Source: Olsenella sp. SW781
GTDB lineage: Bacteria > Actinomycetota > Coriobacteriia > Coriobacteriales > Atopobiaceae
Assembly: GCF_012027725.1 (NCBI RefSeq)
Contig: NZ_SJOU01000010.1
Coordinates: 1-64,000 of the forward strand
Reading direction: 5' to 3'
DNA: 64,000 bases
The notes beneath the pieces were generated by a model that saw nothing but the letters and a program-made list of their open reading frames with translations, ran no database searches and was not told where the DNA came from. The first letter of the stretch is position 1. The number at the start of each line of letters is the position of its first letter. Positions 50,853 through 64,000 of this stretch are shown here, one piece after another. The position numbers and the translations under genes were made by a program.

Positions 50853-53800
50853 CTACCCGACCCCGTACCACCCCACGCCCTCCTCGCGCCAGCCCACGGA
50901 GACGAGGTGGTCGTTCTCGTCCCTGGAGGTGGTGTAGTTGTGCGTGCCGGTCGCCGCGTAGGGGTTGTACTGGCGCCAGAGCGGCACGCCGGCCGAGGCG
51001 GGCGCGGACATCCAGCCCACGCCCTCGTACTCCCAGCCGGCCGCCACGAGCTCGTCGCGCTCGGTCGCCGAGAGCGTGTAGTGGTGGTCGCCGCCGGTGA
51101 CGTAGGGGTTGTAGAGGCGGTAGACGGGGTCGCCCGTCGCCGGGGCCACCCATCCCAGGCCCTCGTCCGTCCAGCCCACGGCGATAAGCCCGTCGCGCTC
51201 CTCGGCCGAGGCGGTGTAGAAGTGCTCGCCGGTCCACCGGTTGTAGAGGCGGTACATGTCCCGCGTCGATGGGACGGGATCGGGCTCCGGATCGGGCTCG
51301 CCAACGATCTCGATGGGCACGGCAACGGTCGCCGTGCGCTCGGCATAGCGGCAGGTGACGACGAGCTCCGCCTCCCCCGGCGTGGAGGTGTCGATCTCGC
51401 TTGCGTTCGTCTCGTAGGAGGACGACGCGACCTCGGTGCCGTCCTCGAGGACGGCCGTCACCTCCATCCCGGAGAGGTCGAGGGGCTCCCCCGCCTCGAA
51501 GCTCGCGTCGGGCAGCGAGACCCTAACGCGCTCAAGCGGCGCGCCGAGAGCACCCTCGTCGCTCGCGTAGACGAACACGGAGTTGTCGCTCTCGCAGGCG
51601 TCTTCAACGTCGGCGGGTGCCGCGACGAGGCAGACGCTCCCGGCGCCCCAGGACACCACCTCGTCGGCGCCAAGGGAGCCAGACACGGCGGCACCCGGGA
51701 CGACCGTGCCCAGGTCAATTGTGGAAAGAAGGGTCCCCGACACATCGCCCTCGCGGACCTCGAGGATCGCGCGCGAGGGGGCCGTGCCGTCGTTGCCAAC
51801 CTCGTAGCTAACCCCGTCGGGTCCCCCCTCGGCCTCGAGAACGAGGTCGACGAGGCCGGCCTCGACAGTCGCCGAGGAGGTCGCGGAGCCCGCCACGCCG
51901 AGGGACACGCGCGCCTCGTCGCCGGCAGCCACCCCTCCGACAATCGAGGGGGCGGGGACATCGAGCGTGCGCGACTCGCCCGCGCCCATCGCGGGGACGT
52001 CGAGCGAGGCGACCTGGCCCCCGCCCAGCGAGACCGACACCGTGCCGGCGCTCGTGGCGGAGAGGCCGTCGTTTTTGACCTCGACCCTCACCGTCGGGAC
52101 GTCGCCGCCCTCGCCGCCGTACAGGCTGAGCTCGGCGGAGGTCACCTCGGGGGAGGCCGCCTCGTCCACGTCGAGGACGCAGAGGTTGGCGACCTGGGAT
52201 ACCTGGCCCTCGCCGTCGGGGGCGGCGCCCTCCCCGCCGATCGTGACGTCGGAGCGAAGCAGGACGACGTCCCAGCCGTCGCCGTCGGACAGGCCGGTAG
52301 CGTCGGACACGTAGCCGGGCTCCTCGGTGAGAGTCACGGGCCCGCTCGCCGTAACGCCACCGGAGCCGCCCGGGTCGAGGCGCCTCGCGACGAGGTCGGA
52401 GCCGCCCTCCTCGTCCCTCGCCTCGCAGGTGAGGAGGAGCTGGCCCTCCCCGCCCCCCACAATCGAGAAGTCCGCGGAGATCGAGTCGCCGGACGCGAGA
52501 ACCTCGCCGGACCCCGCGTCGGCGCTTGCGCCGTAGAGGACGGAGCCCGCGGCGGCGTCGTACCACGCGAGGCAGTCGTCGGCGCCAATCCGCGCGAACC
52601 GCAGGCCGGACGCGCCGGAGCCCGTGAGGCCGAGGGCGTCGCCGCTCCCGGCGTCGAGCGCCCGCAGCGTCCTGTCGGACGTCGTGGAGAGGTCGCCATC
52701 CGCGTCCTCGACGAAGGCAACGGCGACGGAGCCGCCGAGGGAGCCGGCCGCGACCTCCGTCACCGGAACGTCGCGGCCCGTCGAGCTCGAGGCGCGCTCA
52801 GCAAGGGAGCCGCCGTCGGCCGCATAGGCCACCGAGCGGACGGTATTCTCACCAGACATCCCGAGCGGGTCGCAGGCAGGGTTCTCCACCCACGCCACGA
52901 CGAGCCCCTCGGAGCCGTCAGCGAGCTCGCACGCCTCGACCGAGGGCATGAGGCCGCCGGCGCCAGGGCCGGAGAGGACCACGGGCTCTCCCACGGGCAC
53001 GACGGAGCCGTCCGCGGAGACCTCAGCAGCCCTGAGGACCACGCTCGACCCCGAGGCAACGATCCCGAGCTGCTCCTCTACGGGCAGGGCGAGCTGGGCG
53101 TCCGTGAGCGGCGCGCCCGGCTCGACCTGGGCAACCCACACAGTGTCGCCGACCACGCAGCACGAGGCGTCGTAGCCGACGGCGCCCTCCCCGAGCAGGG
53201 GCACGGGCTCCCGCCACGTCCCCGCGGCCTCGTCGTAGACGGAGACGTACGGCGTCGTGCTGTGGGCGTCGGGCATGCCCTCCTGGTCGAGGGTGTAGAC
53301 GATCGCCCGCACCCCCGACTCGGTCTCGAGCATCCGCGGCTCGGCGCCGTCGTAGACGTTGGGCTGCAGCTGCAGGAGGGAGCCGCCGGGAGAGGACGCC
53401 CCGCCGGACGGCGCCAGCGAGCGAGACGTCGCCCGGCCGCTGGTCCAGGCTCCCGCGATGTCTCGCTCGACCCCGAACCAGCCGCCGGAGGAGCCGGCCG
53501 CCCCGGCGCCACCCACGGCCGAGCGACCCCTTCTTGCGCTGTCGTAGTACTTCCAGTCGCCGTCCAGGAGGGCCTTCTCGTACTCAAAGCAGAGAAAACG
53601 TGCCCGTGCGCCCAGCTCGCCGGAGAGGGTAGCAGAACGATTACCTCTGAGACCTCGCTCCAATGTGACTATGTTGGAGGCCGAACCGTAGACGCTAACG
53701 TCAGCAACATAGGCAACTCCAATACCACCGGTGAGCATAAAGTCGGGCAGCGTCATCTCAATTGTACTGTCGACGTAAACACTCGCCTCGTCTAGGTCGA

Positions 53801-55589
53801 CGCCAACTTTACTCGTCGAGTCAACACCGACATCCGCGGAAAAAGTAATCACAACCGGCACCACCACGACAGTTTGCCACTCCCATTTGCCGGTCGCATG
53901 CATGCCGACAGAAATCTTCCCTCGGCTGATCTGGATACCATCCTCTACAATCGTACCCTCGGCAAAACCCCAGATACTCATTTTGGGCTCGACAGCCCCA
54001 CTGAGAACCGTCGCGTTATATGCCACGGCGAGGTCAAGGCCTCGAAGCCCTTTCGCAATGTTTCTGTTCTGGGTCTCCACGAACTTCTTGAAAGTTGTCC
54101 ATCCACCGCCGTCAATCAGCTCGTCCATGTCATCAACGCCGATGCCGATGCGCCACTGGTTACCTTCGCGCCTGAACTCCACCGGCACCATACCGTAGTC
54201 GAGAGACACGTCCGTGCCGCCGAGGAGCGGGACGTCCTTCGGCACCGTGAGCTCGAGGCCGCCCTCGAGCTTGAAGTCGGTTTCCTCGGTGTCCTCTGGC
54301 TTGCTCTCGACGATGACTGCCCCGCCCGACTCGGGACCGGGGTCGGGGGTGTGGCCGGTACTGACAGCGCCAAACCCGGGCACCCTCCCAGGCACAACCC
54401 TCTCTTCAACGGTTGAAGTGGCCCGTCCTAACTTACCCGCATAGTTACTTCCCCACGTCCAGAGAGAGCCGTCCTCCGATATAGCAGCAGAATGGTTGCC
54501 ACCCAATGAGACAGAGGCAACGCCATCCATAATCTTTACGAGTTCGTAGCGATTGTTTGTCGTTCCGTCCCCGAGCTGACCATTGTCGTTTACGCCTTGA
54601 GTCCAGAGAGAACCGTCCTTCAGAACCACTGCGGTAAACGAGGCATCACGATTGTCACTGAACGTATCTCCGCAAGATACATCGATGACATCATCCGCGA
54701 CCTTAACGGGCGTCGTCTGGTCTTCTCCATAAGGATCGCTATTGCCAAAATGGCCGTATCTAGGCGCACCCCACATCCATAGAGACCCGTCACCCTTTAT
54801 TGCCGCTGTATGAAAGAAGCCCAAAGAAACAGACTCCACATTGTCTGTAACCCACACAGGCGCATCATGGTTTACTGACGTACCATCGCCGAGCTGGCCA
54901 TGATAGCCATCTCCCCACATCCAGAGTGAACCGTCACGTTGGATTGCGGCGGCAAAGCCGCTCTCTCCACCACGACTAAATGAGACCTCAGCAACGTTGT
55001 CCATTATTTTTGTTGCGGTAGAGCAAGACCCATCTGGCCCGTTCCCAAGTAAGCCGAATATGTCACTTCCCCACGTATAAAGCGAACCATCGGCAGTGAC
55101 AGCACCGCCCGCATGTCCTCCAAGACCAACGGAAATGACATTATCCATAACCTTCGTAGGCACGCTACAATACCATTCATCTGTAGTGTAGCCGAGCTGA
55201 TTGGTTGTATTGTATCCCCACGTCCAGAGGGAGCCGTCCTCGGTAATCGCAGCAGAGCTGGAGGAACTAAGAGCGATGTACTTAACGTTTTCCATTATCT
55301 TTGTCGGTTGTTGACAATCTTCGGTTGTTCCGTTACCGAGCTTGCCACCGTAGTTTTCGCCCCACGTCCAGAGGGAGCCGTCCTCGGTAATCGCAGCAGA
55401 GAAATCACCACCCAGCTCTACCTGCGTCACCCGCAGCCCCTCAATCTCGCGTGGGACCGCCGCGACCTCCTCGGCTCGGCCCACCGTCGCGATGCCAAGG
55501 CACGCGAGGATCGCGACGGCCACGAGCGAAAGCGTAATCCCGACCCTCGCCACGATCGCCAACCGTGAGACGTTTCTCTTCTTGCCCAT
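50853..55589 (-). CDS. Giant secreted RCC1-propeller/DUF5648 protein, copy 2
   Basis: 1578 residues with the same layout as 34141-38835: signal peptide (about 1-34), seven RCC1 blades (about 45-415), beta-rich middle, CARDB-like and Big_3-like units, DUF5648 module (about 1437-1578). The blades are strongly divergent from copy 1 and from each other (for example [20 protein letters not shown] and SFTAVVLKDGSLWTQG), while the following 1,028 codons are the same. The last two DUF5648 units differ again in the DNA. So the two proteins share a constant core flanked by variable ends. ATG at 55589; upstream leader similar to copy 1. Confidence 0.87.
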   Translation of the reverse strand: MGKKRNVSRLAIVARVGITLSLVAVAILACLGIATVGRAEEVAAVPREIEGLRVTQVELGGDFSAAITEDGSLWTWGENYGGKLGNGTTEDCQQPTKIMENVKYIALSSSSSAAITEDGSLWTWGYNTTNQLGYTTDEWYCSVPTKVMDNVISVGLGGHAGGAVTADGSLYTWGSDIFGLLGNGPDGSCSTATKIMDNVAEVSFSRGGESGFAAAIQRDGSLWMWGDGYHGQLGDGTSVNHDAPVWVTDNVESVSLGFFHTAAIKGDGSLWMWGAPRYGHFGNSDPYGEDQTTPVKVADDVIDVSCGDTFSDNRDASFTAVVLKDGSLWTQGVNDNGQLGDGTTNNRYELVKIMDGVASVSLGGNHSAAISEDGSLWTWGSNYAGKLGRATSTVEERVVPGRVPGFGAVSTGHTPDPGPESGGAVIVESKPEDTEETDFKLEGGLELTVPKDVPLLGGTDVSLDYGMVPVEFRREGNQWRIGIGVDDMDELIDGGGWTTFKKFVETQNRNIAKGLRGLDLAVAYNATVLSGAVEPKMSIWGFAEGTIVEDGIQISRGKISVGMHATGKWEWQTVVVVPVVITFSADVGVDSTSKVGVDLDEASVYVDSTIEMTLPDFMLTGGIGVAYVADVSVYGSASNIVTLERGLRGNRSATLSGELGARARFLCFEYEKALLDGDWKYYDSARRGRSAVGGAGAAGSSGGWFGVERDIAGAWTSGRATSRSLAPSGGASSPGGSLLQLQPNVYDGAEPRMLETESGVRAIVYTLDQEGMPDAHSTTPYVSVYDEAAGTWREPVPLLGEGAVGYDASCCVVGDTVWVAQVEPGAPLTDAQLALPVEEQLGIVASGSSVVLRAAEVSADGSVVPVGEPVVLSGPGAGGLMPSVEACELADGSEGLVVAWVENPACDPLGMSGENTVRSVAYAADGGSLAERASSSTGRDVPVTEVAAGSLGGSVAVAFVEDADGDLSTTSDRTLRALDAGSGDALGLTGSGASGLRFARIGADDCLAWYDAAAGSVLYGASADAGSGEVLASGDSISADFSIVGGGEGQLLLTCEARDEEGGSDLVARRLDPGGSGGVTASGPVTLTEEPGYVSDATGLSDGDGWDVVLLRSDVTIGGEGAAPDGEGQVSQVANLCVLDVDEAASPEVTSAELSLYGGEGGDVPTVRVEVKNDGLSATSAGTVSVSLGGGQVASLDVPAMGAGESRTLDVPAPSIVGGVAAGDEARVSLGVAGSATSSATVEAGLVDLVLEAEGGPDGVSYEVGNDGTAPSRAILEVREGDVSGTLLSTIDLGTVVPGAAVSGSLGADEVVSWGAGSVCLVAAPADVEDACESDNSVFVYASDEGALGAPLERVRVSLPDASFEAGEPLDLSGMEVTAVLEDGTEVASSSYETNASEIDTSTPGEAELVVTCRYAERTATVAVPIEIVGEPDPEPDPVPSTRDMYRLYNRWTGEHFYTASAEERDGLIAVGWTDEGLGWVAPATGDPVYRLYNPYVTGGDHHYTLSATERDELVAAGWEYEGVGWMSAPASAGVPLWRQYNPYAATGTHNYTTSRDENDHLVSVGWREEGVGWYGVG
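51154..54237 (-). repeat. 3.08-kb identical block, copy 2
   Basis: Partner of 34439-37522 (offset 16,715 bp). Flanked at both ends by sequence that is homologous but diverged, a pattern of gene conversion and not of a simple fresh duplication of the whole gene. Confidence 0.85.
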
Positions 55590-55723: not shown

Positions 55724-55960
55724 CTACCAGGCCACACTCTCCTCGAGCCAGCTGACGGAGACGAGGTGATCGTTCTCGGCCTTGAAGGCGTATGATTGTG
55801 GGTGCCGGTCATCGCATAGGGGCTGTATGGCGGTAAATAGGAACGCCTCCCCCGCCTGCAGCCGAATACAAGCCCACACCTTTATTCGCCAGCCGTGAGC
55901 GACGAGATTGGCGCGTTCCACAGAGGGGAGCGTGTAGTAGTGGCCTCCCCGCCATTGCAT
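55724..55960 (-). pseudogene. 3' remnant of a DUF5648 gene
   Basis: Pieces GGHYYTLPSVERANLVAHGW and [18 protein letters not shown] are recognisable as the second and third DUF5648 units; between them the frame is shifted (AIQPLCDDRHPQSYAF is an out-of-frame reading of YRQYNPYA...THNYT). The closest relative is 15632-16387 (TLSSVERTSLVAHGW). It lies upstream of the giant RCC1 copy 2, mirroring the remnant at 38913-39160. Confidence 0.75.
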
Positions 55961-56022
55961 GACGTCACTTTGGCTTATTTTCAGACGTCGAAGACAACCC
56001 TCCGCCCAAATTGGACCGACAG

Positions 56023-56051
56023 TTTTTCTCCTCGGAAAGTGAGGAGAAAAA
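56023..56051. terminator. Hairpin with A/T-rich arms
   Basis: Arms TTTTTCTCCTC (56023-56033) and GAGGAGAAAAA (56041-56051) with a 7-nt loop. The T-run on one side and A-run on the other suit a bidirectional terminator, but no intact gene ends nearby, so it may be left from a lost gene. Confidence 0.55.
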
Positions 56052-56353
56052 CCGAAGCAAGCGCTCCGATTCTTAACGCTTGCATGCATCGCCAGAGTCA
56101 ATCATTCTGACCCTCCGGAATACGAAGGGCCCAACAAGGGAAGACGCCTTACTCCAAGCCGCACCTTACCGCTGCACCCGACAGGCGACAACGCACGCCA
56201 TAAGACGTACAGCATAATATTGGACCCACTGATCGGACCTACGAGAGACGTTGTTGATTGCCCTGTCCCCAGTAGGCAGCAGTACCCTGCAGCATTGTTG
56301 CCACTTCAACTACAATCGAAGGCGACTGCGGACTTGCACACGAAGGAGCGGCT
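56052..56353. other. Upstream region of the ornithine-cyclodeaminase-family gene
   Basis: About 300 bp that mark the right border of the surface-protein array. It should hold the rightward promoter of the gene at 56354; AGCATAATATTGG near 56210 is the best -10-like stretch, without a good -35. Nothing else recognised. Confidence 0.35.
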
Positions 56354-57304
56354 GTGAAACTAATTTCCTTTGAGGACATCTCCGGCCTGAACATTCCCTC
56401 TTCCCGGTGCTGTGAATGGGTCGACGAGGCGCTAAAGATCAAAGAGACCTCCGCCCTCCCGAAGAAGATTAGTCTATCCATCGATGGCATGCATAATGTG
56501 TTCTACAACACCATGCCTTCGCTGCTTCCGGATATTAGCCGAGGCTGCGTCAAGCTCGTAACCCGCTACCCAGAACGTGTGCCCGCACTCGACAGCGAGA
56601 TTCTCCTCTATGACCTTGGTACGGGAGAGTGCCTTGCGCTCATGGACGGCGACTGGATCACCACGATGCGCACAGGCGCCGTTGCGGCACACTCCATCAG
56701 GCTTCTCGCCAAGCCGTCCTTCGCGCGCGTGGGCATCATGGGCTTGGGCAACACCGCCCGTGCGACCATGCTCTGCCTGCAGAGCATCTTCAGCGAGCGA
56801 CCGCTCCAGATTGGCCTGCTCGTCTACAAGGACCAGCACCTGAGCTTTGCCGAGAGGTTCAAGGCGTACGACAATCTCTCGTTCAGCTTCTTTGAGAGCG
56901 TCGAGGAGCTCGCCGCATGGTCGGAGGTGTTTGTCTCCTGCGTCACCGCCGCGGACTCGGACTTCTGCTCTCCTGACTGCTTCATGCCCGGCACGCTGCT
57001 CGTTCCGGTGCACACGCGCGGCTTTGCCCAATGTGACCTCGTGTTTGACAAGGTGTTCGCAGATGACATCGCCCACGTGGGCGGCTTCAGGTACTTTGAG
57101 TCGTTCAGGGACAGGCTCGCCGAGGTGGCCGACGTCGTTGCCGGGGACAAGCCGGGACGCGAGTCGGACGCGGAGCGAATCCTCGCCTACAACATTGGCA
57201 TCTCGCTCCATGACACCTACTTTGCAAGCAAGGTCTACGAGCTGGCGGCCGCCAGCTCACCGACAGTCGACCTCTGCAAGCCCTCCGAGAAGATCTGGGT
57301 ATAG
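56354..57304 (+). CDS. Ornithine cyclodeaminase/mu-crystallin family protein
   Basis: 316 residues. The dinucleotide-binding loop RVGIMGLGNTARA is at about 125-137, and the family motif MDGDWITTMRTGAVAAHS at about 97-114 contains the substrate-contacting Arg and Thr. Members are NAD(P)-dependent: ornithine cyclodeaminases, alanine dehydrogenases, ketimine reductases and enzymes of amino-acid-derived metabolites; the exact substrate is not readable. The N-terminal Lys-Lys (PKKISLS) stands where the family has a conserved Lys. Start is a GTG with GAAGGAG upstream. The stop at 57304 directly abuts the stop of the convergent amidohydrolase gene. Confidence 0.82.
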   Translation: MKLISFEDISGLNIPSSRCCEWVDEALKIKETSALPKKISLSIDGMHNVFYNTMPSLLPDISRGCVKLVTRYPERVPALDSEILLYDLGTGECLALMDGDWITTMRTGAVAAHSIRLLAKPSFARVGIMGLGNTARATMLCLQSIFSERPLQIGLLVYKDQHLSFAERFKAYDNLSFSFFESVEELAAWSEVFVSCVTAADSDFCSPDCFMPGTLLVPVHTRGFAQCDLVFDKVFADDIAHVGGFRYFESFRDRLAEVADVVAGDKPGRESDAERILAYNIGISLHDTYFASKVYELAAASSPTVDLCKPSEKIWV

Positions 57305-58879
57305 CTAGCAGTTCCCCTTGCCAAAGACGCCCCTCAGGACCGCCGGGAGCATGCCCTGCTCCTGGCGCCGGTAGGGCCTTCCCCCCAGAATCAGCTGCTC
57401 CACGCTCAGCCGGCCTAGGTCGGACGGGCTCATGTCGTAGGGATTCTCCGAGAGGACCACCATGTCCGCGACCTTACCGACCTCCAGCGAGCCGCGCTGC
57501 GCCTCGTCGAACGTCGTCCAGTACCCGTTGTACGTGCACATGCGCAGCGCCTCGCGTATGGTGAGCGACTGGGCGGGATTGGAGTGGTTGCAGGCCCGCT
57601 CCATCCAGACGATGGGGTCGGGGTCGGTGCAGGGGGCGTCCGAGCCGGCCGAGATCCTGATTCCCCTGTCCCACATCGTTCTGAGCGGGTTGAGCCGACC
57701 AGCTCGATCAGCGCCGAGAATGCGGACGAGATACTCGTCCGGCTCCTGGGGCCAGCCTATGAACGAGGTCTGAACGGGGAACTGGATGCCGTATTCGGCA
57801 CAGATGGCGAGGCCCTCCTCCGTTGGCAGGCAGTCATGGATGATCCCGTGACGATGGTCCTCGCGCGGGAAGTCGTCGAGGGCTGCCTTGAGGCACCTTG
57901 CCGCCTGGTCAAAGGCAGCGTCCCCTATCGCGTGCATCTCTATCTGCAGCCCCGCCCTGTTGGCTGCCTTGCAGAACTCCGCAACCCTCTCGTCCGTGTA
58001 GTACAGGACGCCGCGATCCGTCGTTCCCTCATAGGGCTCCAGCAGTGCGGCATCCGCTGACCCAAAGCAGCCATCCAGGGCGCACGCGAAGCAGCCCCCA
58101 ATGCGAGGAAGACCGCGCTTTCGGGCCACGTCAACATCGAGCGACTGCGGAAAGACCCTGACCTGAAAGCCGTGCTGAGCGCTCCTCGCGAGCCACGTCT
58201 CAAGGGAGATGTCCAGGTCGTTAGCAAAGCCGACGCCACTCACGGTATGGACCATGCCAATGCCCTTGCCGGCGAGATAGTCCATTGCTCTCTGGATGTT
58301 GCGCACCAGCTCGGGGATGGACAGCGACCCGGTGACGTAGTCAGAGACCGCGAAGAACGCCTCTTGGTTCATCTCGCCGGTATCGGGGTGATATCCACGC
58401 AGCCCAGAGACCTTGTCCTCTATGCGCTTGAGCAGCGCAGAGTTGACGATGCAGGCATGCCCGTCGTACTTCACGAGCATGAGGGGGCGATCGGGACACA
58501 CGACATCGAGCTCGGAGCGGGAGACGAGCACACGCTCCTCGACGGAATAGGGCGACGCGCCAAAGGCAATGAGAATCTTGGACGACGACCGACCAGAGAA
58601 ATCACGAACCAACTCAAGAATCTCTGAGTTGGAGCGCGCATCCATGACGTTGAGCCCCGCGTTGAACATGGCAAAGCTCGCCAGATGCTCATGCGTGTCG
58701 ACGAAGCTCGGACAGAGTGCGCAGTCCCCGAGCTCGACCACCTCCGCACCGGCTGCCTCGGAGTAGCTCCTCGGAAGCTCGTCTCCCACAAAGACGATCC
58801 TTCCCTCGCTCTCGACAAGATACCGGGCAACGGCGTCCTCGGCGTTCACCGTCAGAATCGGGCCGTGGTAGATTCTCAT
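57305..58879 (-). CDS. Amidohydrolase (Amidohydro_3/YtcJ-like)
   Basis: 524 residues of the metal-dependent hydrolase superfamily. Metal ligands: HxH in FVDTHEHLA (His63, His65), a likely carbamylated or bridging-site region LVKYDGHACIVNS (about 135-147), MHAIGD (about 318) and GSDAP near 417. The N-terminal MRIYHGPILTVNAEDAVARY and the end GKVADMVVLSENPY form the small beta-sandwich typical of the family. Likely action is hydrolysis of an amide or cyclic amide bond in the cytoplasm. The ATG at 58879 has GGAGG upstream. Third gene of the operon with the permease and the LicA/LicC-like protein. Confidence 0.87.
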   Translation of the reverse strand: MRIYHGPILTVNAEDAVARYLVESEGRIVFVGDELPRSYSEAAGAEVVELGDCALCPSFVDTHEHLASFAMFNAGLNVMDARSNSEILELVRDFSGRSSSKILIAFGASPYSVEERVLVSRSELDVVCPDRPLMLVKYDGHACIVNSALLKRIEDKVSGLRGYHPDTGEMNQEAFFAVSDYVTGSLSIPELVRNIQRAMDYLAGKGIGMVHTVSGVGFANDLDISLETWLARSAQHGFQVRVFPQSLDVDVARKRGLPRIGGCFACALDGCFGSADAALLEPYEGTTDRGVLYYTDERVAEFCKAANRAGLQIEMHAIGDAAFDQAARCLKAALDDFPREDHRHGIIHDCLPTEEGLAICAEYGIQFPVQTSFIGWPQEPDEYLVRILGADRAGRLNPLRTMWDRGIRISAGSDAPCTDPDPIVWMERACNHSNPAQSLTIREALRMCTYNGYWTTFDEAQRGSLEVGKVADMVVLSENPYDMSPSDLGRLSVEQLILGGRPYRRQEQGMLPAVLRGVFGKGNC

Positions 58880-58909: not shown

Positions 58910-60316
58910 CTATCTCAGGTCGCTCTCCGCCTCGGCAAGACGAGCAAACTCCTCCTCGGGAGCATTTGCCACAAGATGGAAGCGGGCATAGAGCAGGAAG
59001 TAGGCGGTACCAAGGACAAACATCACCAGAACCGCCACCGCAGCGGCCACGTCGACGAAGAAGGTCGAGCACGTGGCAACGCAGGAGAGCAGCAGGCCGA
59101 GCGTCGTGGTGAAAACGCCGCCCGGGGTCAGATACCCGCGGTCCATCTGGGGCTCCCTCCTCCTCAGGACGATGTGCGACAGGTTCATCAGCGCGTAGCT
59201 CACACACGCGCCAAACACCGCCATGTTGATGAGCGCGTCCCCGTCCTGGACGACCGCCACCAGCACAATCCCAATCACTCCGATGAGCAGCAGGGAGAGC
59301 GCCGGGGTCTTTCGGCTTCCGGTGAGCGCGAGGACGGACGGCAGATACCCCGCGCGCGACAGGGCAAACATCTGGCGGGACCCCGCATAGATGAGCGAGA
59401 AGAACGACGCAACCAGCCCAAAGAGTCCGGCGACGTTAACGAACAGGGCAAACGACGGGTGGTCCGCGTCGTTGAGCGCGTCGACCAGAGGTGCGGTCGA
59501 GGTTCCCATGACCTGCGAGCCGGAACCTCCGGCAGCGAGCAGGAGCACACAGAACCCCGTTATGACGAGGATCCCCATCGCAAAGATGATGGAGCGCGGG
59601 ATATCCCTCCTCGGGTCTCTCGCCTCCTCCGCAGCGAGGGGGACACCCTCGATACCCAGGAAGAACCAGATTCCAAACGGGAGGGCTGCGATGGCGCCCG
59701 CAACACCAAAGGGCAACAGCGTGCTGCCGCCGGCGGCGGGAGCAATGTCGAAGAGGCGATCGACGGAGAACTCTGGAATCATGCCAACGGCAAATACCAG
59801 CAGCGCGACGGCAGCGACCGCGGTGATGGCGAGCATCAGCTTGAGGGCCTCACCCACACCAAAGATGTGGACGGCAATGAAGATCACGTATGCGGCGACC
59901 ACCACGGCGAAATGCGGGACTCCTTCGGGAAGGATTCCCAGCTCAAATACATAGTTTGCGATAAAGGTCGAGATAGCGGCCGGAGCGCAGACATACTCGA
60001 TGAGGACGGCGAGCCCGGTGACAAAGCCGCCGGTCTTTCCCAGCGCCCTTCGGGCGAATCCGTATCCGGCACCGGCAGTGGGCAGGGCACTCGAGAGCTC
60101 CGCTATCCCAAATACCGTGCAGCCATACATGAGCCCCATGGCAACGAACGCTACGCAGAGCCCGAGCCATCCCCCGTTGGCGATTCCGTAGTTCCACCCG
60201 GAGAAGTCACCCGAGATGACGTATGAGACGCCGAGCCCGGTGAGCAGCACCCAGCCGACCGTCCCCTGCTTGAGCGACCTCTTCTCGAAGTACTCCTGCT
60301 GAGCCTCGTTCTTCAT
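58910..60316 (-). CDS. APC-superfamily permease, ethanolamine permease-like
   Basis: 468 residues, twelve probable membrane helices. GLGVSYVISGDFSGWNYGIANGG near the N-terminus (pieces), ELSSALPTAGAGYGFARRALG and AVLIEYVCAPAAIS follow the pattern of the ethanolamine permease branch of the APC superfamily (SGDFxGWN, IEYVxxPAxI). An amino acid or other amino alcohol is possible. It starts 9 bp after the stop of the LicA/LicC-like gene, so the pair is tightly coupled. An amino-alcohol importer next to an amino-alcohol kinase and cytidylyltransferase is a coherent pathway: uptake, phosphorylation, activation. Confidence 0.84.
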   Translation of the reverse strand: MKNEAQQEYFEKRSLKQGTVGWVLLTGLGVSYVISGDFSGWNYGIANGGWLGLCVAFVAMGLMYGCTVFGIAELSSALPTAGAGYGFARRALGKTGGFVTGLAVLIEYVCAPAAISTFIANYVFELGILPEGVPHFAVVVAAYVIFIAVHIFGVGEALKLMLAITAVAAVALLVFAVGMIPEFSVDRLFDIAPAAGGSTLLPFGVAGAIAALPFGIWFFLGIEGVPLAAEEARDPRRDIPRSIIFAMGILVITGFCVLLLAAGGSGSQVMGTSTAPLVDALNDADHPSFALFVNVAGLFGLVASFFSLIYAGSRQMFALSRAGYLPSVLALTGSRKTPALSLLLIGVIGIVLVAVVQDGDALINMAVFGACVSYALMNLSHIVLRRREPQMDRGYLTPGGVFTTTLGLLLSCVATCSTFFVDVAAAVAVLVMFVLGTAYFLLYARFHLVANAPEEEFARLAEAESDLR

Positions 60317-60325
60317 CGTCTCTCC

Positions 60326-62974
60326 CTAACCGATTCGATAGGCCGGATCGAACGCCTGCAGCTCCTCGAAGGAGTCGATCTCCACGATGTCGTTCGCCGA
60401 GCAGGGTCGAACGAAGACGTCGTAGTTCTCGGGACGCCGATCGAGTGCCACGTCGTCCCAGAAGATCTGCTGGCACTCCCCTCCCTGGTCAAAGACGGCG
60501 GGAATGTCCTTCGACAGGCGTCGGCCGTCGGCAGCGGACCAGTACGAGAGGCCGACCATCTGCCAGCACGGACCGTCGCATCCCTTTGCAATGCGAACGA
60601 TTTTGCCGTCGTCGTTTGCGGCAAAGCACCAATCCTCGGTCCTGTCCACATGAAACGCCAGGTAGTTCGTTCGATACTGGTACTTGGTGATATAGGAGGG
60701 GTCTGCCAGGAACAGGTCGCTCTCGAAAACGTAGGCATCCTCAAAGTGCTCCCTGGCGAGCAGCGCGGAGGAAATGTTGTTCGTCGAGTCAAACCTCGGG
60801 TTGTCAATGAAGACGATGGAGGGGTACTTGGACCGAAGCTGCTCGAACTCCTCCTTGAGGTACCCGCGGACGACGTAGATCTCCTTGATGCCCGCCGCCA
60901 CGACGGCATCCAGCAGGCGATCGATGATGCGAACGCCGTGCACGCGGACGAGCGGCTTGGGCGTGTTGATGGTGATGGGGAGCATGCGACTACCAAGCCC
61001 CGCGGCCAGGAAGATGGCCCTGCGCACGCGATGAGGCTCGAGCGCACTCACGCCCGCCCAGGTTATTCGCCCGTCTGAGAGCATGCCCCGCTCCTCTAGC
61101 CCGGAGCGGACCGCGGCGTCGAAGGAGTCGAGGCTCCTCTTGGCCTCCGCGGCAACGAGAACGTCAAACTCCTCGTGGGTCAGCTCGGCGACCTCGCGCC
61201 TGCGCTCGGCAAGCAGCGTGCTCGCATAGGCGCCGTACTCCCGCGCCGCCTTGTACCAGATGCGCAGCCACTCCCCCACCGGGGAGCCCTTGCACTCCTT
61301 GTACATCGCCCACACATACCAGTACCAGCCCACAACGGCAACGCAAGCGATGCAGTGAAACGCCTCGCTGTCCGTGGCTGGCCTCCCGTAGTAGAGGGGG
61401 AGCATGTCGAGCGTCTCCTGGACGGAGTAGCCGGACCCCTGTGCGACAAAGTTGCCGATATCGCAGCCATAGTCCCCCATTGCAGCGTACTCCCAGTCGA
61501 TGAGGCAGATGTCGCCGTCGTGGACCAGGAGGTTAGGGCCATAGAAGTCGTTGTGGCAGAGCACCGGGTCTCCCGAGCCCTCACGCATGGGGGCAACGAG
61601 GCCGGCGATGGTAGCCGCGGTCTCGTCAAAGCCCTCGGGCATGCGCCAGCCCTCGGCCTTGAGAAGGCCGACGATCTTGCAGGCCTCGTCATAGAAATCG
61701 AACGAATAGGGCGACGTGGCACCGCTCTCGTGAAGTCGTCTGGCAATGGCGAGCGCGCCGGATACGTGGGCCTCATTGCGGTAGTCAAAGTCCACGCAGT
61801 CGGGGATGAAGCGCGAAATCTTCCAACCGGCAGCGGGGTCCTCGAATATGAACGAGGTGTCTAGGCCGAGCTCGGCAGCGGTCTTGAGCGCTATCGTCTC
61901 TGCATCTCGGTTGACGATCTCCTCGGTACCCGCCCCCGGGTGACGGTAGACGTAGCGCTCCCCCTTGCAGTCAAACAGCACCGAGAGGTTGGTGAGGCCA
62001 GCCTTGAGCGGCTCGACGTGCGTGATGTCCCCTCGCGCGCAGGAGAGGGTGGAGCAGATGTTGTCGAGGATCTGCGAGTCGACGTTCTCAATGAAGTCGG
62101 TGTCAAACGCACAGAGGTCGTCGAAGAAGTCGAACTCGTACACCATGCCCGCAGGTAGCTTGCGCGCCCGCAGGGAGAGCTCCTTGGCATGGCCCATGGC
62201 TATCTGTTCCCAGAGCTTGCCAAACGTGTCTGGCGCATCGTACTCGCGGTCGAGCAGCGCGAGATAACGATGAGCGGTCGCCTCGTCGAAGTATGCCGGG
62301 CCCAGCAGGTACCGAGCGTCCTCGGAGGGCGCCTTGTCGTACCCCATGAGACGGTCGTGAGCACCCAGCCTCACCGGCCGCTCCCCCGCCTCGGCTCCCT
62401 GCTGAACGACGGAGCACCAAGAGCCCAGCTCGAATTTGCTGAAGAGGTTCTCCGCGAAGAACTGGTCAGACGAGCAGATGTAGGAGCCACCCTCAAGGCC
62501 ATCGAGGGCGATGCGGAGCGAGGCGTGGTTGTTCCTCTTGAGATAGTCCGGGTTCTCGATGAGATGGACACCGAACTTGTCCTCCAGATAGTAGAACTGC
62601 TCCTTCATATGGCCAACGACCACGCGAATGTCTTCGATTCCGGCGTCCTGGAGCTGGCGAATGAGGCGTTCGATGAGGACCTCGCCCCTGACCTTGAAGA
62701 GCGCCTTGGGCTTCTCGAAGGACAGCGGAGCAAAACGCGTCGACATGCCTGCCGCAAGGACGACGGCATGTCTGACGCGAAAGGACTCAAGCTCGGAGAT
62801 GCCAAGGTCCGTGACCGTCAGATCGTCTTGGAGCTGGCCGATGGACTTGAGCTCGCGGACCGCCTTGTTCACCGCCCCGAGGGACAAGTCAAGCGATGAC
62901 GCCAGCTGTCGTTGGGTGAGTTGGTGCGATTTTACGCAGGCACAGAGCACACGGAACTGACTTTGAGTGAGCAT
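60326..62974 (-). CDS. Fusion: HTH, nucleotidyltransferase, choline-type kinase, nucleotidyltransferase (LicA/LicC-like)
   Basis: 882 residues in four parts. (1) Winged HTH, 1-62 (LTQRQLASSLDLSLGAVNKA). (2) Nucleotidyltransferase, about 68-300, with AAGMSTRFAPLSFEKPKALF and a DQFF acidic site. (3) Choline/ethanolamine kinase of LicA type, about 310-590, with the catalytic loop CHNDFYGPNLL (473-483) and metal-binding IDWEYA. (4) Second nucleotidyltransferase, about 650-882, with LAAGLGSRMLPITINTPKP and FESDLF. In lic systems choline is phosphorylated (LicA) and activated to CDP-choline (LicC) before transfer to a surface glycan. Here both steps sit in one chain with a regulator-like head. The ATG at 62974 has AGGAGG 6 nt upstream. 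Which amino alcohol is used, and why two nucleotidyltransferases occur, is open. Confidence 0.86.
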   Translation of the reverse strand: MLTQSQFRVLCACVKSHQLTQRQLASSLDLSLGAVNKAVRELKSIGQLQDDLTVTDLGISELESFRVRHAVVLAAGMSTRFAPLSFEKPKALFKVRGEVLIERLIRQLQDAGIEDIRVVVGHMKEQFYYLEDKFGVHLIENPDYLKRNNHASLRIALDGLEGGSYICSSDQFFAENLFSKFELGSWCSVVQQGAEAGERPVRLGAHDRLMGYDKAPSEDARYLLGPAYFDEATAHRYLALLDREYDAPDTFGKLWEQIAMGHAKELSLRARKLPAGMVYEFDFFDDLCAFDTDFIENVDSQILDNICSTLSCARGDITHVEPLKAGLTNLSVLFDCKGERYVYRHPGAGTEEIVNRDAETIALKTAAELGLDTSFIFEDPAAGWKISRFIPDCVDFDYRNEAHVSGALAIARRLHESGATSPYSFDFYDEACKIVGLLKAEGWRMPEGFDETAATIAGLVAPMREGSGDPVLCHNDFYGPNLLVHDGDICLIDWEYAAMGDYGCDIGNFVAQGSGYSVQETLDMLPLYYGRPATDSEAFHCIACVAVVGWYWYVWAMYKECKGSPVGEWLRIWYKAAREYGAYASTLLAERRREVAELTHEEFDVLVAAEAKRSLDSFDAAVRSGLEERGMLSDGRITWAGVSALEPHRVRRAIFLAAGLGSRMLPITINTPKPLVRVHGVRIIDRLLDAVVAAGIKEIYVVRGYLKEEFEQLRSKYPSIVFIDNPRFDSTNNISSALLAREHFEDAYVFESDLFLADPSYITKYQYRTNYLAFHVDRTEDWCFAANDDGKIVRIAKGCDGPCWQMVGLSYWSAADGRRLSKDIPAVFDQGGECQQIFWDDVALDRRPENYDVFVRPCSANDIVEIDSFEELQAFDPAYRIG

Positions 62975-63006
62975 GCAACCTCCTGACAAGGATTATGTTC
63001 ACTCAT

Positions 63007-63035
63007 ATTATCCGTATGAAGATACGTGAACGCAA
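63007..63035 (-). promoter_or_regulatory. Probable promoter of the LicA/LicC-like operon
   Basis: Leftward TTGCGT (63030-63035), 17-bp spacer, GATAAT (63007-63012), some 35 bp before the start codon. ACTCATATTATCCG around the -10 is AT-rich in an otherwise GC-rich setting. Confidence 0.5.
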
Positions 63036-63091: not shown

Positions 63092-64000
63092 CTATACCTC
63101 TAGTGCATCCCGTGCGGCCTTCAGGAGCTGGTCGACGCTCGCGCCCCAGCTGAAGCTCCTCCGGACGAGCTCATGGCACTTCTCGGATTGCTTGCGAATG
63201 GAATCGGGGTCGTCGGCAAGACGGGAAATCGCCCTCACGATGCTCTCCGCACTCGCATCAGGGAGAATCGTGCCGTACGACTCGTCCGGAATCAGCTCAC
63301 GCGCACCGCCCACGTCGGTCACGACGGACGGACACCCGCATGCGGCTGCCTCGAGCAGGCTTGTCGAGAAGCCCTCGGAACGGCTGGGAAGACAGTAGAG
63401 GTCCGCCTGGGTCAGCAGCTTGGCTACGTCGCTCTTGCTGATGGGCCCGAGGGCGAGGACATTGCCGCCCGCGGAGCGCACCTCCCTCTCAAGGGGACCG
63501 GAGCCCGCAATCGCAAAGCACACGCCCCGCGAGACGAGCGCGGGGTCCTTGGCGGCCTTGAGCAGAGCGACGATCCCCTTTTCGGGCACCAGGCGCCCGA
63601 TGACGGCAACCAGGAGACGACAGTCGTGCAAGGGGGCCTCGAGGCGAAAGTCCCTCTTCGAGGCACTGCTCTCGAACGACTCGGCATCGATGGAGTTGTT
63701 GATCATCCCCCGCGCCTCGATGCCAAAGTGACGGAGCCACTCGACGCTCCTCTGGGAGATGCCGTAGTACACGGGGTCGTAGTGCCTCCTGCCCCAGAGC
63801 GTGACTCCGTTCTCATAGACGCGAACCACGCGGTCGAGGACCGGGTTGTTAAAGCAGAGGTAGGCGGACCCATGGTCAAGGACGATTGGCCTGAGCCCCA
63901 TGTTCCTGGCAATCTTCATCCCCAAGAGACTGTGCGGGTAGAAGCGCGTGTTAACAAGAACCGCGTCAAAGCGTCGCCTGGACACCGCCGCCCTCAGCTC
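63092..64000 (-). CDS. Glycosyltransferase, GT4-type, 5' end beyond the window
   Basis: At least 302 residues, open to the window edge (the first visible codons are ELRAAVSRRRFDAVLVNTRF). AVIGRLVPEKGIVALLKAAK begins the C-terminal Rossmann domain, and the nucleotide-sugar motif EGFSTSLLEAAACGCPSVVT with the conserved Glu pair is intact, as in GT-B family 4 enzymes. The visible N-terminal part (GLRPIVLDHGSAYLC) is the acceptor domain. It probably builds the surface polysaccharide that the neighbouring genes decorate. It lies 117 bp upstream of the LicA/LicC-like gene; the promoter between suggests a separate start for the latter. Confidence 0.85.
   Translation of the reverse strand, partial: ELRAAVSRRRFDAVLVNTRFYPHSLLGMKIARNMGLRPIVLDHGSAYLCFNNPVLDRVVRVYENGVTLWGRRHYDPVYYGISQRSVEWLRHFGIEARGMINNSIDAESFESSASKRDFRLEAPLHDCRLLVAVIGRLVPEKGIVALLKAAKDPALVSRGVCFAIAGSGPLEREVRSAGGNVLALGPISKSDVAKLLTQADLYCLPSRSEGFSTSLLEAAACGCPSVVTDVGGARELIPDESYGTILPDASAESIVRAISRLADDPDSIRKQSEKCHELVRRSFSWGASVDQLLKAARDALEV

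Follow-up and report, generated by a model that had tools for sequence, protein, structure and literature searches.

Surface glycans decorated with phosphocholine or phosphoethanolamine influence the bacterial encounter with the host immune system. In the Lic-1 pathway (LicA, LicC and LicD) of Streptococcus pneumoniae and Haemophilus influenzae, the kinase and the cytidylyltransferase come from separate genes, licA and licC. A single protein with both activities, LicCA of Treponema denticola, was reportedly described by Kent et al. in 2004; it is said to combine a cytidylyltransferase and a choline kinase, to be devoid of a DNA-binding head and of a second cytidylyltransferase, and to serve phosphatidylcholine synthesis. 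The trifunctional NadR of Enterobacterales is an HTH - nucleotidyltransferase - kinase chain that regulates its own salvage pathway, including uptake (PMC12421817), and in PntC, the 2-aminoethylphosphonate (AEP) cytidylyltransferase, Glu104, which matches D105 of LicC, faces the primary amine of the substrate (PMC6697681). A literature search for an HTH joined to a choline kinase or to LicC returned nothing relevant, and a search for gut Coriobacteriia making or regulating phosphocholine or phosphoethanolamine found nothing either in the literature covered; this second subject seems unstudied.

We analysed a window of 64,000 nucleotides from Olsenella sp. SW781 (contig NZ_SJOU01000010.1), in which one gene had been predicted to encode an 882-residue chain of HTH, nucleotidyltransferase, kinase and nucleotidyltransferase. 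The open reading frame, Pfam, an AlphaFold model and the relatives all bear this out, and sequence comparison indicates that the four-module protein is a genuine, recurrent Lic-type enzyme with its own operator. Its parts are as follows (NT1 and NT2, first and second nucleotidyltransferase; wHTH, winged HTH):

60326..62974, minus strand: fused gene, wHTH - NT1 - kinase - wHTH remnant - NT2, 882 aa (ORF, Pfam, relatives, AlphaFold model)
62979..62984, minus strand: ribosome-binding site AGGAGG, shortly 5' of the ATG
62783..62974, minus strand: N-terminal winged HTH, aa 1-64, recognition helix LDLSLGAVNKAV (Pfam MarR/HTH_24, homologue alignment)
62099..62779, minus strand: NT1, nucleotidyltransferase, aa 66-292 (Pfam, residue alignment, AlphaFold model)
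61217..62083, minus strand: LicA-type choline/ethanolamine kinase, aa 298-586 (sequence match to LicA, AlphaFold model)
61031..61183, minus strand: degenerate second winged HTH in the linker, aa 598-648 (alignment and AlphaFold model)
60335..61030, minus strand: NT2, LicC-type cytidylyltransferase, aa 649-880 (sequence match to LicC, AlphaFold model)

The minus-strand frame (62974..60326) translates as 882 codons with zero internal stops, and because AGGAGG at 62984-62979 precedes the ATG, the TTG at 62989 is an unlikely start. Pfam places MarR/HTH_24 at 1-46, NTP_transf_3 at 70-171 (making NT1 a MobA-like nucleotidyltransferase), APH/Choline_kinase at 408-519 and NTP_transferase at 653-780. 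The AlphaFold model has a mean pLDDT of 91.4 and a pTM of 0.63, domain placement being uncertain; its segments match solved structures of LicC (649-880, Z 32), LicA (298-584, Z 26) and PntC (66-292, Z 26). By sequence, NT2 comes closest to the solved structure of pneumococcal LicC, and the kinase to those of a Mesorhizobium choline/ethanolamine-kinase-family protein and of pneumococcal LicA. In the N-terminal wHTH, whose alignment took in about 55 homologous HTHs, the modelled helices span 4-15, 21-28, 32-44 and 56-63; in the second wHTH, between kinase and NT2, some 13 residues around the recognition helix are gone. Chance and a frame or assembly error, the latter being the first doubt raised with the original prediction, were ruled out by 60% identity over 1-880 in genome G046 and by eight more loci that encode all four domains in a single ORF of 858-906 aa, the fusion recurring intact in other genera.

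The assignment to LicA- and LicC-type families held as well, with matching folds and catalytic residues in place. Taking the catalytic and choline-box residues of LicA as reference (PMC4364537), we found T29, D176, N181, D194 and E196 (P-loop, Brenner and choline-kinase motifs, LicA numbering) all kept in the kinase, which answers the second doubt, a loss of its catalytic residues. The aromatic choline box Y197, W251, W254, Y268 reads Y, W, W, W (Y268->W). The choline-kinase motif keeps its start, but its tail departs by N->G, by a Cys in place of the aromatic residue and by E213->G, which weighs against the reading favoured below; in LicB-linked homologues E213 is replaced too, mostly by C. 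V178 is replaced by Tyr; this LicA position is Tyr in its class, and mostly Phe/Leu in LicB-adjacent homologues. The proposed comparison of both nucleotidyltransferase sites with LicC gave two different pictures. The NT2 model superposes on LicC with Z 32.0 over 227 residues (TM 0.92 on target length), carries the GxG(T/S)R...PK signature and the Mg-site residues D107, E216 and D218, and keeps R18, K28, N86-N87, T133, W136 and D192 besides (LicC numbering). The sole change among the residues tested is D105->E (E751): on the phosphocholine side W136 and D192 are kept, and position 105 is Glu in every NT2 of its class. NT1 has lost its acceptor motif.

A homologue is present in 53 of 100 relatives, mostly as HTH-NT1-kinase proteins of about 600 aa. 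Fusion of kinase and nucleotidyltransferase is thus ordinary in Coriobacteriia, and the starting premise that licA and licC are normally separate holds for H. influenzae and pneumococcus but not for this class. The four-domain fusion is found in G046, Parvibacter caecicola, Slackia isoflavoniconvertens, S. faecicanis, Slackia sp., Ellagibacter (E. isourolithinifaciens), Gordonibacter and two MAGs; the survey suggested at the outset thus located it in several Coriobacteriia genera, and none was seen outside the class among the relatives examined. Of 296 class genomes sampled, 40 carry a close NT2; in 10 of them (window included, two families) the frame that holds it is at least 880 aa long. NT2 is a separate adjoining gene in G052, G050, G060, G084, G088 and others, and in Lachnospira (Eubacterium) eligens the genes for HTH-NT1-kinase and NT2 are neighbours, with a BCCT transporter next in line. 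NT2 itself carries a full MarR-type HTH in G058, and a full HTH precedes it in locus L043. Because a wHTH remnant precedes NT2 here and a full HTH-NT2 exists in G058, the protein amounts to [HTH-NT-kinase] plus [HTH-NT]: by sequence comparison, a widespread HTH-NT1-kinase gene of approximately 600 aa was joined to a neighbouring (HTH-)NT2 gene. Fused forms cluster in the NT2 tree, where two changes are needed, a count that leaves room for a single fusion origin as well.

The fate of NT1 differs between these architectures. In the window protein, NT1 keeps the CTP/Mg residues R80, K90, D170, E280 and D282 (LicC R18, K28, D107, E216, D218) and has AGER in place of the acceptor motif T-x-E-W (LicC 133-136). 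T-x-E-[WY] is kept in NT1 of 47/50 homologues without NT2; the site as a whole is intact in 45/50 of these compared to 3/27 with NT2, a contrast that is descriptive because it rests on about three independent NT2 gains, so that a Fisher p overstates it, with too few tree pairs for a sign test. Many NT2-carrying relatives have N or K at D218 of NT1, and NT1 is wholly missing in S. exigua (L097) and G067 (L039), where kinase and NT2 remain. In the fused proteins of Ellagibacter, Gordonibacter and L104, NT1 retains a complete T-x-E-Y and the NT2 site is intact as well. Mean pairwise identity within the class is 47% for NT1, the lowest of the enzyme domains, against 58% for the kinase and 57% for NT2. 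As NT1 is often broken or absent in relatives having NT2, kinase and NT2 form, by this comparison, the conserved core of the family. NT1 appears to be under relaxed constraint in NT2-carrying relatives; it would be the original cytidylyltransferase of an ancestral HTH-NT-kinase protein, having lost its acceptor motif after NT2 was gained, and would now be relaxed or regulatory.

The surroundings of the gene contain the following features:

58910..60316, minus strand: APC-type ethanolamine permease (TIGR00908, 446.7 bits, cut-off 381.75)
57305..58879, minus strand: amidohydrolase (Amidohydro_3, Pfam), 30 bp past the permease
56354..57304, plus strand: ornithine-cyclodeaminase-family (OCD) gene, convergent, possible accessory (Pfam; Collinsella bouchesdurhonensis gene run)
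63092..64000, minus strand: GT4 glycosyltransferase, 3' part, the gene reaching contig position 64618 (Pfam; contig beyond the window)

The permease gene begins 9 bp past the fused gene, and the same permease gene adjoins the kinase in L093, L106, L108, L111 and L113. S. isoflavoniconvertens has the same order of fused gene, permease and amidohydrolase, while Collinsella bouchesdurhonensis encodes HTH-NT1-kinase, permease, OCD-family protein, amidohydrolase, NT2 and LicD in one run. The amidohydrolase occurs in 9/100 relatives, and eight of these also have the closest kinase and NT2 pair; it was not found in the examined stretches of L108 and L113, which have kinase, permease and NT2. The GT4 gene opens a surface-polysaccharide cluster with glycosyltransferases, a flippase-like gene and, about 3 kb past the window end, two LicD genes (contig 67372-68052 and 68231-68917). 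More distant sister kinases adjoin EutH. The majority-type (choline-type) homologues adjoin a LicB-like DMT permease and LicD, and LicB-adjacent sisters with a single nucleotidyltransferase probably act on choline. By eye, the ORF list also contains a 1578-aa surface-type protein (window 50853-55589, minus strand) with regular-chromosome-condensation-like repeats and C-terminal YRLYN..GEHFYT repeats, adjoined by a decayed fragment with similar repeats (55724-56101, minus strand). In other operons of this kind (L041:5349-7166, L037:13985-15799, L038:12486-14312) we observed a fusion of about 605 aa between a nucleotidyltransferase and a CobD-like threonine-phosphate-decarboxylase-type PLP enzyme, a candidate for converting an amino-acid phosphate into a CDP-amino-alcohol; the family scan of this fusion covered the L041 copy only.

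Upstream of the fused gene, two elements overlap:

62997..63031, no strand: predicted operator dyad GTTCA-N25-TGAAC, 35 bp, 22 bp before the ATG (upstream comparison)
62992..63020, minus strand: sigma-70-like promoter TTCATA-17-CATAAT, 9/12, overlapped by the dyad (consensus match only)

The dyad was first spotted by inspecting the window's own 117 bp upstream of the gene, where it reads GTTCACGTATCTTCATACGGATAATATGAGTGAAC, and the relatives were tested afterwards. An exact GTTCA-N24/25-TGAAC lies upstream of 29/50 non-redundant homologous genes (shuffles: mean 0.00, maximum 1), with spacers across homologues sharply concentrated at 24-26. HTH and dyad co-occur (42/13 vs 6/34, Fisher p 2e-9), and the association persists on independent tree pairs (7.3 vs 0.6, median p 0.04). 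Several of the 13/55 HTH-bearing genes without an exact dyad in the tested stretch have a site with one mismatch or one at the operon start; in G046, the amidohydrolase is the first operon gene and the dyad lies upstream of it. In 12 other genomes, 13/18 AT-rich dyads are placed where such a gene or operon begins, compared to 1/49 GC-rich ones, and the operon copy is the only AT-rich dyad in this genome. The dyad is also present upstream of homologues in Bifidobacteriaceae and Propionibacteriaceae, and near a homologue start in one Clostridia genome. Since the conserved dyad follows the presence of the HTH, autoregulation is supported and the fused protein probably switches its own operon, in keeping with the self-regulation that the original prediction had read from the HTH. 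The half-sites are about 30 bp apart, three helical turns, which suggests that an enzyme dimer holds two HTH heads wide; such a conserved, wide-spaced dyad makes autoregulation directly testable. The second wHTH remnant, the permease/amidohydrolase operon, the LicD genes past the window and the dyad had not figured in the original prediction.

A regulon beyond the operon was considered for this genome and rejected, because its three further exact dyads, all with GC-rich spacers, appear to be chance matches. Elsewhere, an AT-rich dyad (L047:2169-2202, G026:C1:914169) overlaps the start of a stand-alone nucleotidyltransferase gene, behind which comes an aminotransferase-like gene, and the dyad regulon may reach this PntC/AEPT-like pair. 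Some choline-type homologues (L054, L058, L061, L091) have two tandem dyads 35-40 bp apart upstream, and in G096 (L050:7360-11593) an aminotransferase, a CTP_transf_like-oxidoreductase fusion and HTH-NT1-kinase form one run with a dyad at the operon start.

Domain identity, catalytic residues, the operon, the proximity of LicD and the link between conserved dyad and HTH come from comparing sequences, and from them we infer which substrate is used, that catalysis takes place, in which direction regulation runs, what the ligand is and what NT1 does. We consider it likely that the protein is a Lic-type enzyme that regulates itself. The adjoining permease would import ethanolamine (choline or a substituted ethanolamine being less likely), and the central kinase would phosphorylate it; NT2 would join the phosphate ester to CTP, giving a CDP-amino-alcohol, and LicD transferases would attach the phospho-amino-alcohol to a glycan of the cell surface. 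Binding of the N-terminal wHTH to the 35-bp dyad over the promoter would repress fused gene, permease and amidohydrolase, probably in response to a substrate or product that the enzyme part has bound, with NT1 relaxed or regulatory. By comparison of the sequences, the product for LicD is most likely CDP-ethanolamine (or CDP-choline); CDP-ethanolamine is our best guess, with CDP-choline or a modified amino-alcohol as rivals. Tentatively, NT1 may have become the ligand sensor of a one-protein repressor-enzyme, still binding CTP/Mg after losing acceptor turnover, its occupancy setting the grip of the paired HTHs on the wide operator; this would be a NadR-like regulator-enzyme serving the Lic pathway through an operator class of its own, in Coriobacteriia and some other bacteria. 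The family offers regulator, operator and enzyme in one gene, and its members form a natural series in which domains are intact, fused, eroded or lost.

Both the kinase's aromatic box and W136 in NT2 are compatible with choline too, and together with the LicB-adjacent sisters they would fit an ordinary choline-specific LicA/LicC enzyme making CDP-choline, its ethanolamine permease homologue carrying choline. We think this rather unlikely, given a permease score above the ethanolamine-permease cut-off, EutH beside more distant sister kinases, Tyr at position 178, and a Glu at 105 in NT2 like that of the AEP enzyme PntC. This Glu, and PntC being the best alignment of NT1 among the matches listed, would in turn suit a protein activating 2-aminoethylphosphonate, but no PEP mutase match was found in this 99.7%-complete genome and a phosphonate would make the linked kinase needless, which leaves this reading highly improbable. 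Plain ethanolamine import does leave some genes of related operons unexplained: the amidohydrolase, which goes with the closest kinase and NT2 pair and otherwise with one genome only among 100, the octopine-dehydrogenase-type genes in the loci of the five genomes named above as having a separate NT2, the OCD gene in the L106 run, and the nucleotidyltransferase-decarboxylase fusion. They would agree with a modified amino-alcohol, either an N-substituted ethanolamine that is attached or ethanolamine freed from an N-acyl compound. N-(1-carboxyethyl)ethanolamine phosphate is known from Proteus O14; a literature search gave no usable item in support of it as the product here. With L108 and L113 without the amidohydrolase in the examined stretch, and with the substrates of all these enzymes putative, a modified amino-alcohol is a somewhat unlikely alternative.

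The original prediction had also offered a choice for the two nucleotidyltransferases: that they activate different products, or that one is regulatory. Two active enzymes served by one kinase (for instance phosphoethanolamine for NT2, and phosphocholine or a modified ethanolamine for NT1) would agree with the CTP/Mg residues tested, all retained in NT1, and with Ellagibacter, Gordonibacter and L104, the three fused relatives that keep both sites. The AGER replacement in the window, N or K at D218 in many NT2-carrying relatives, the absence of NT1 from S. exigua and G067 and its low conservation argue against it; as a general rule it is unsupported, NT1 being eroded or absent in most NT2-carrying relatives, and we judge it improbable. 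A putative regulatory role fits better.

Compared to known systems, the logic of the protein recalls NadR by analogy without homology: the domain families are unrelated, the substrate of NadR is NAD and NadR has no second nucleotidyltransferase, and neither NMN adenylyltransferase nor ribosylnicotinamide kinase domains were found in the fused protein, whose domains Pfam and NCBIfam assign elsewhere. PntC and PntC-AEPT (PMC6697681) belong to the same nucleotidyltransferase family and share the Glu at the LicC D105 position, but PntC makes a CMP-phosphonate and goes with PEP mutase, missing here. Closer are the Coriobacteriia HTH-NT-kinase proteins of about 600 aa (such as Collinsella aerofaciens WP_320678046.1, annotated 'phosphotransferase'), homologous over 1-590 and with the same operator type, yet without NT2, mostly beside a LicB-like permease (choline) and with the NT1 acceptor motif intact. 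With the Lic-1 pathway the locus shares the LicA/LicC folds and catalytic residues of kinase and NT2, LicD genes nearby and a permease in the operon. It differs in being one chain instead of two genes, in its own wHTH and operator, the extra NT1 and the amidohydrolase partner, and in having an APC-type ethanolamine permease where the Lic-1 operon has LicB. The underlying Lic pathway was already known; the dyad GTTCA-N24/25-TGAAC is the new result.
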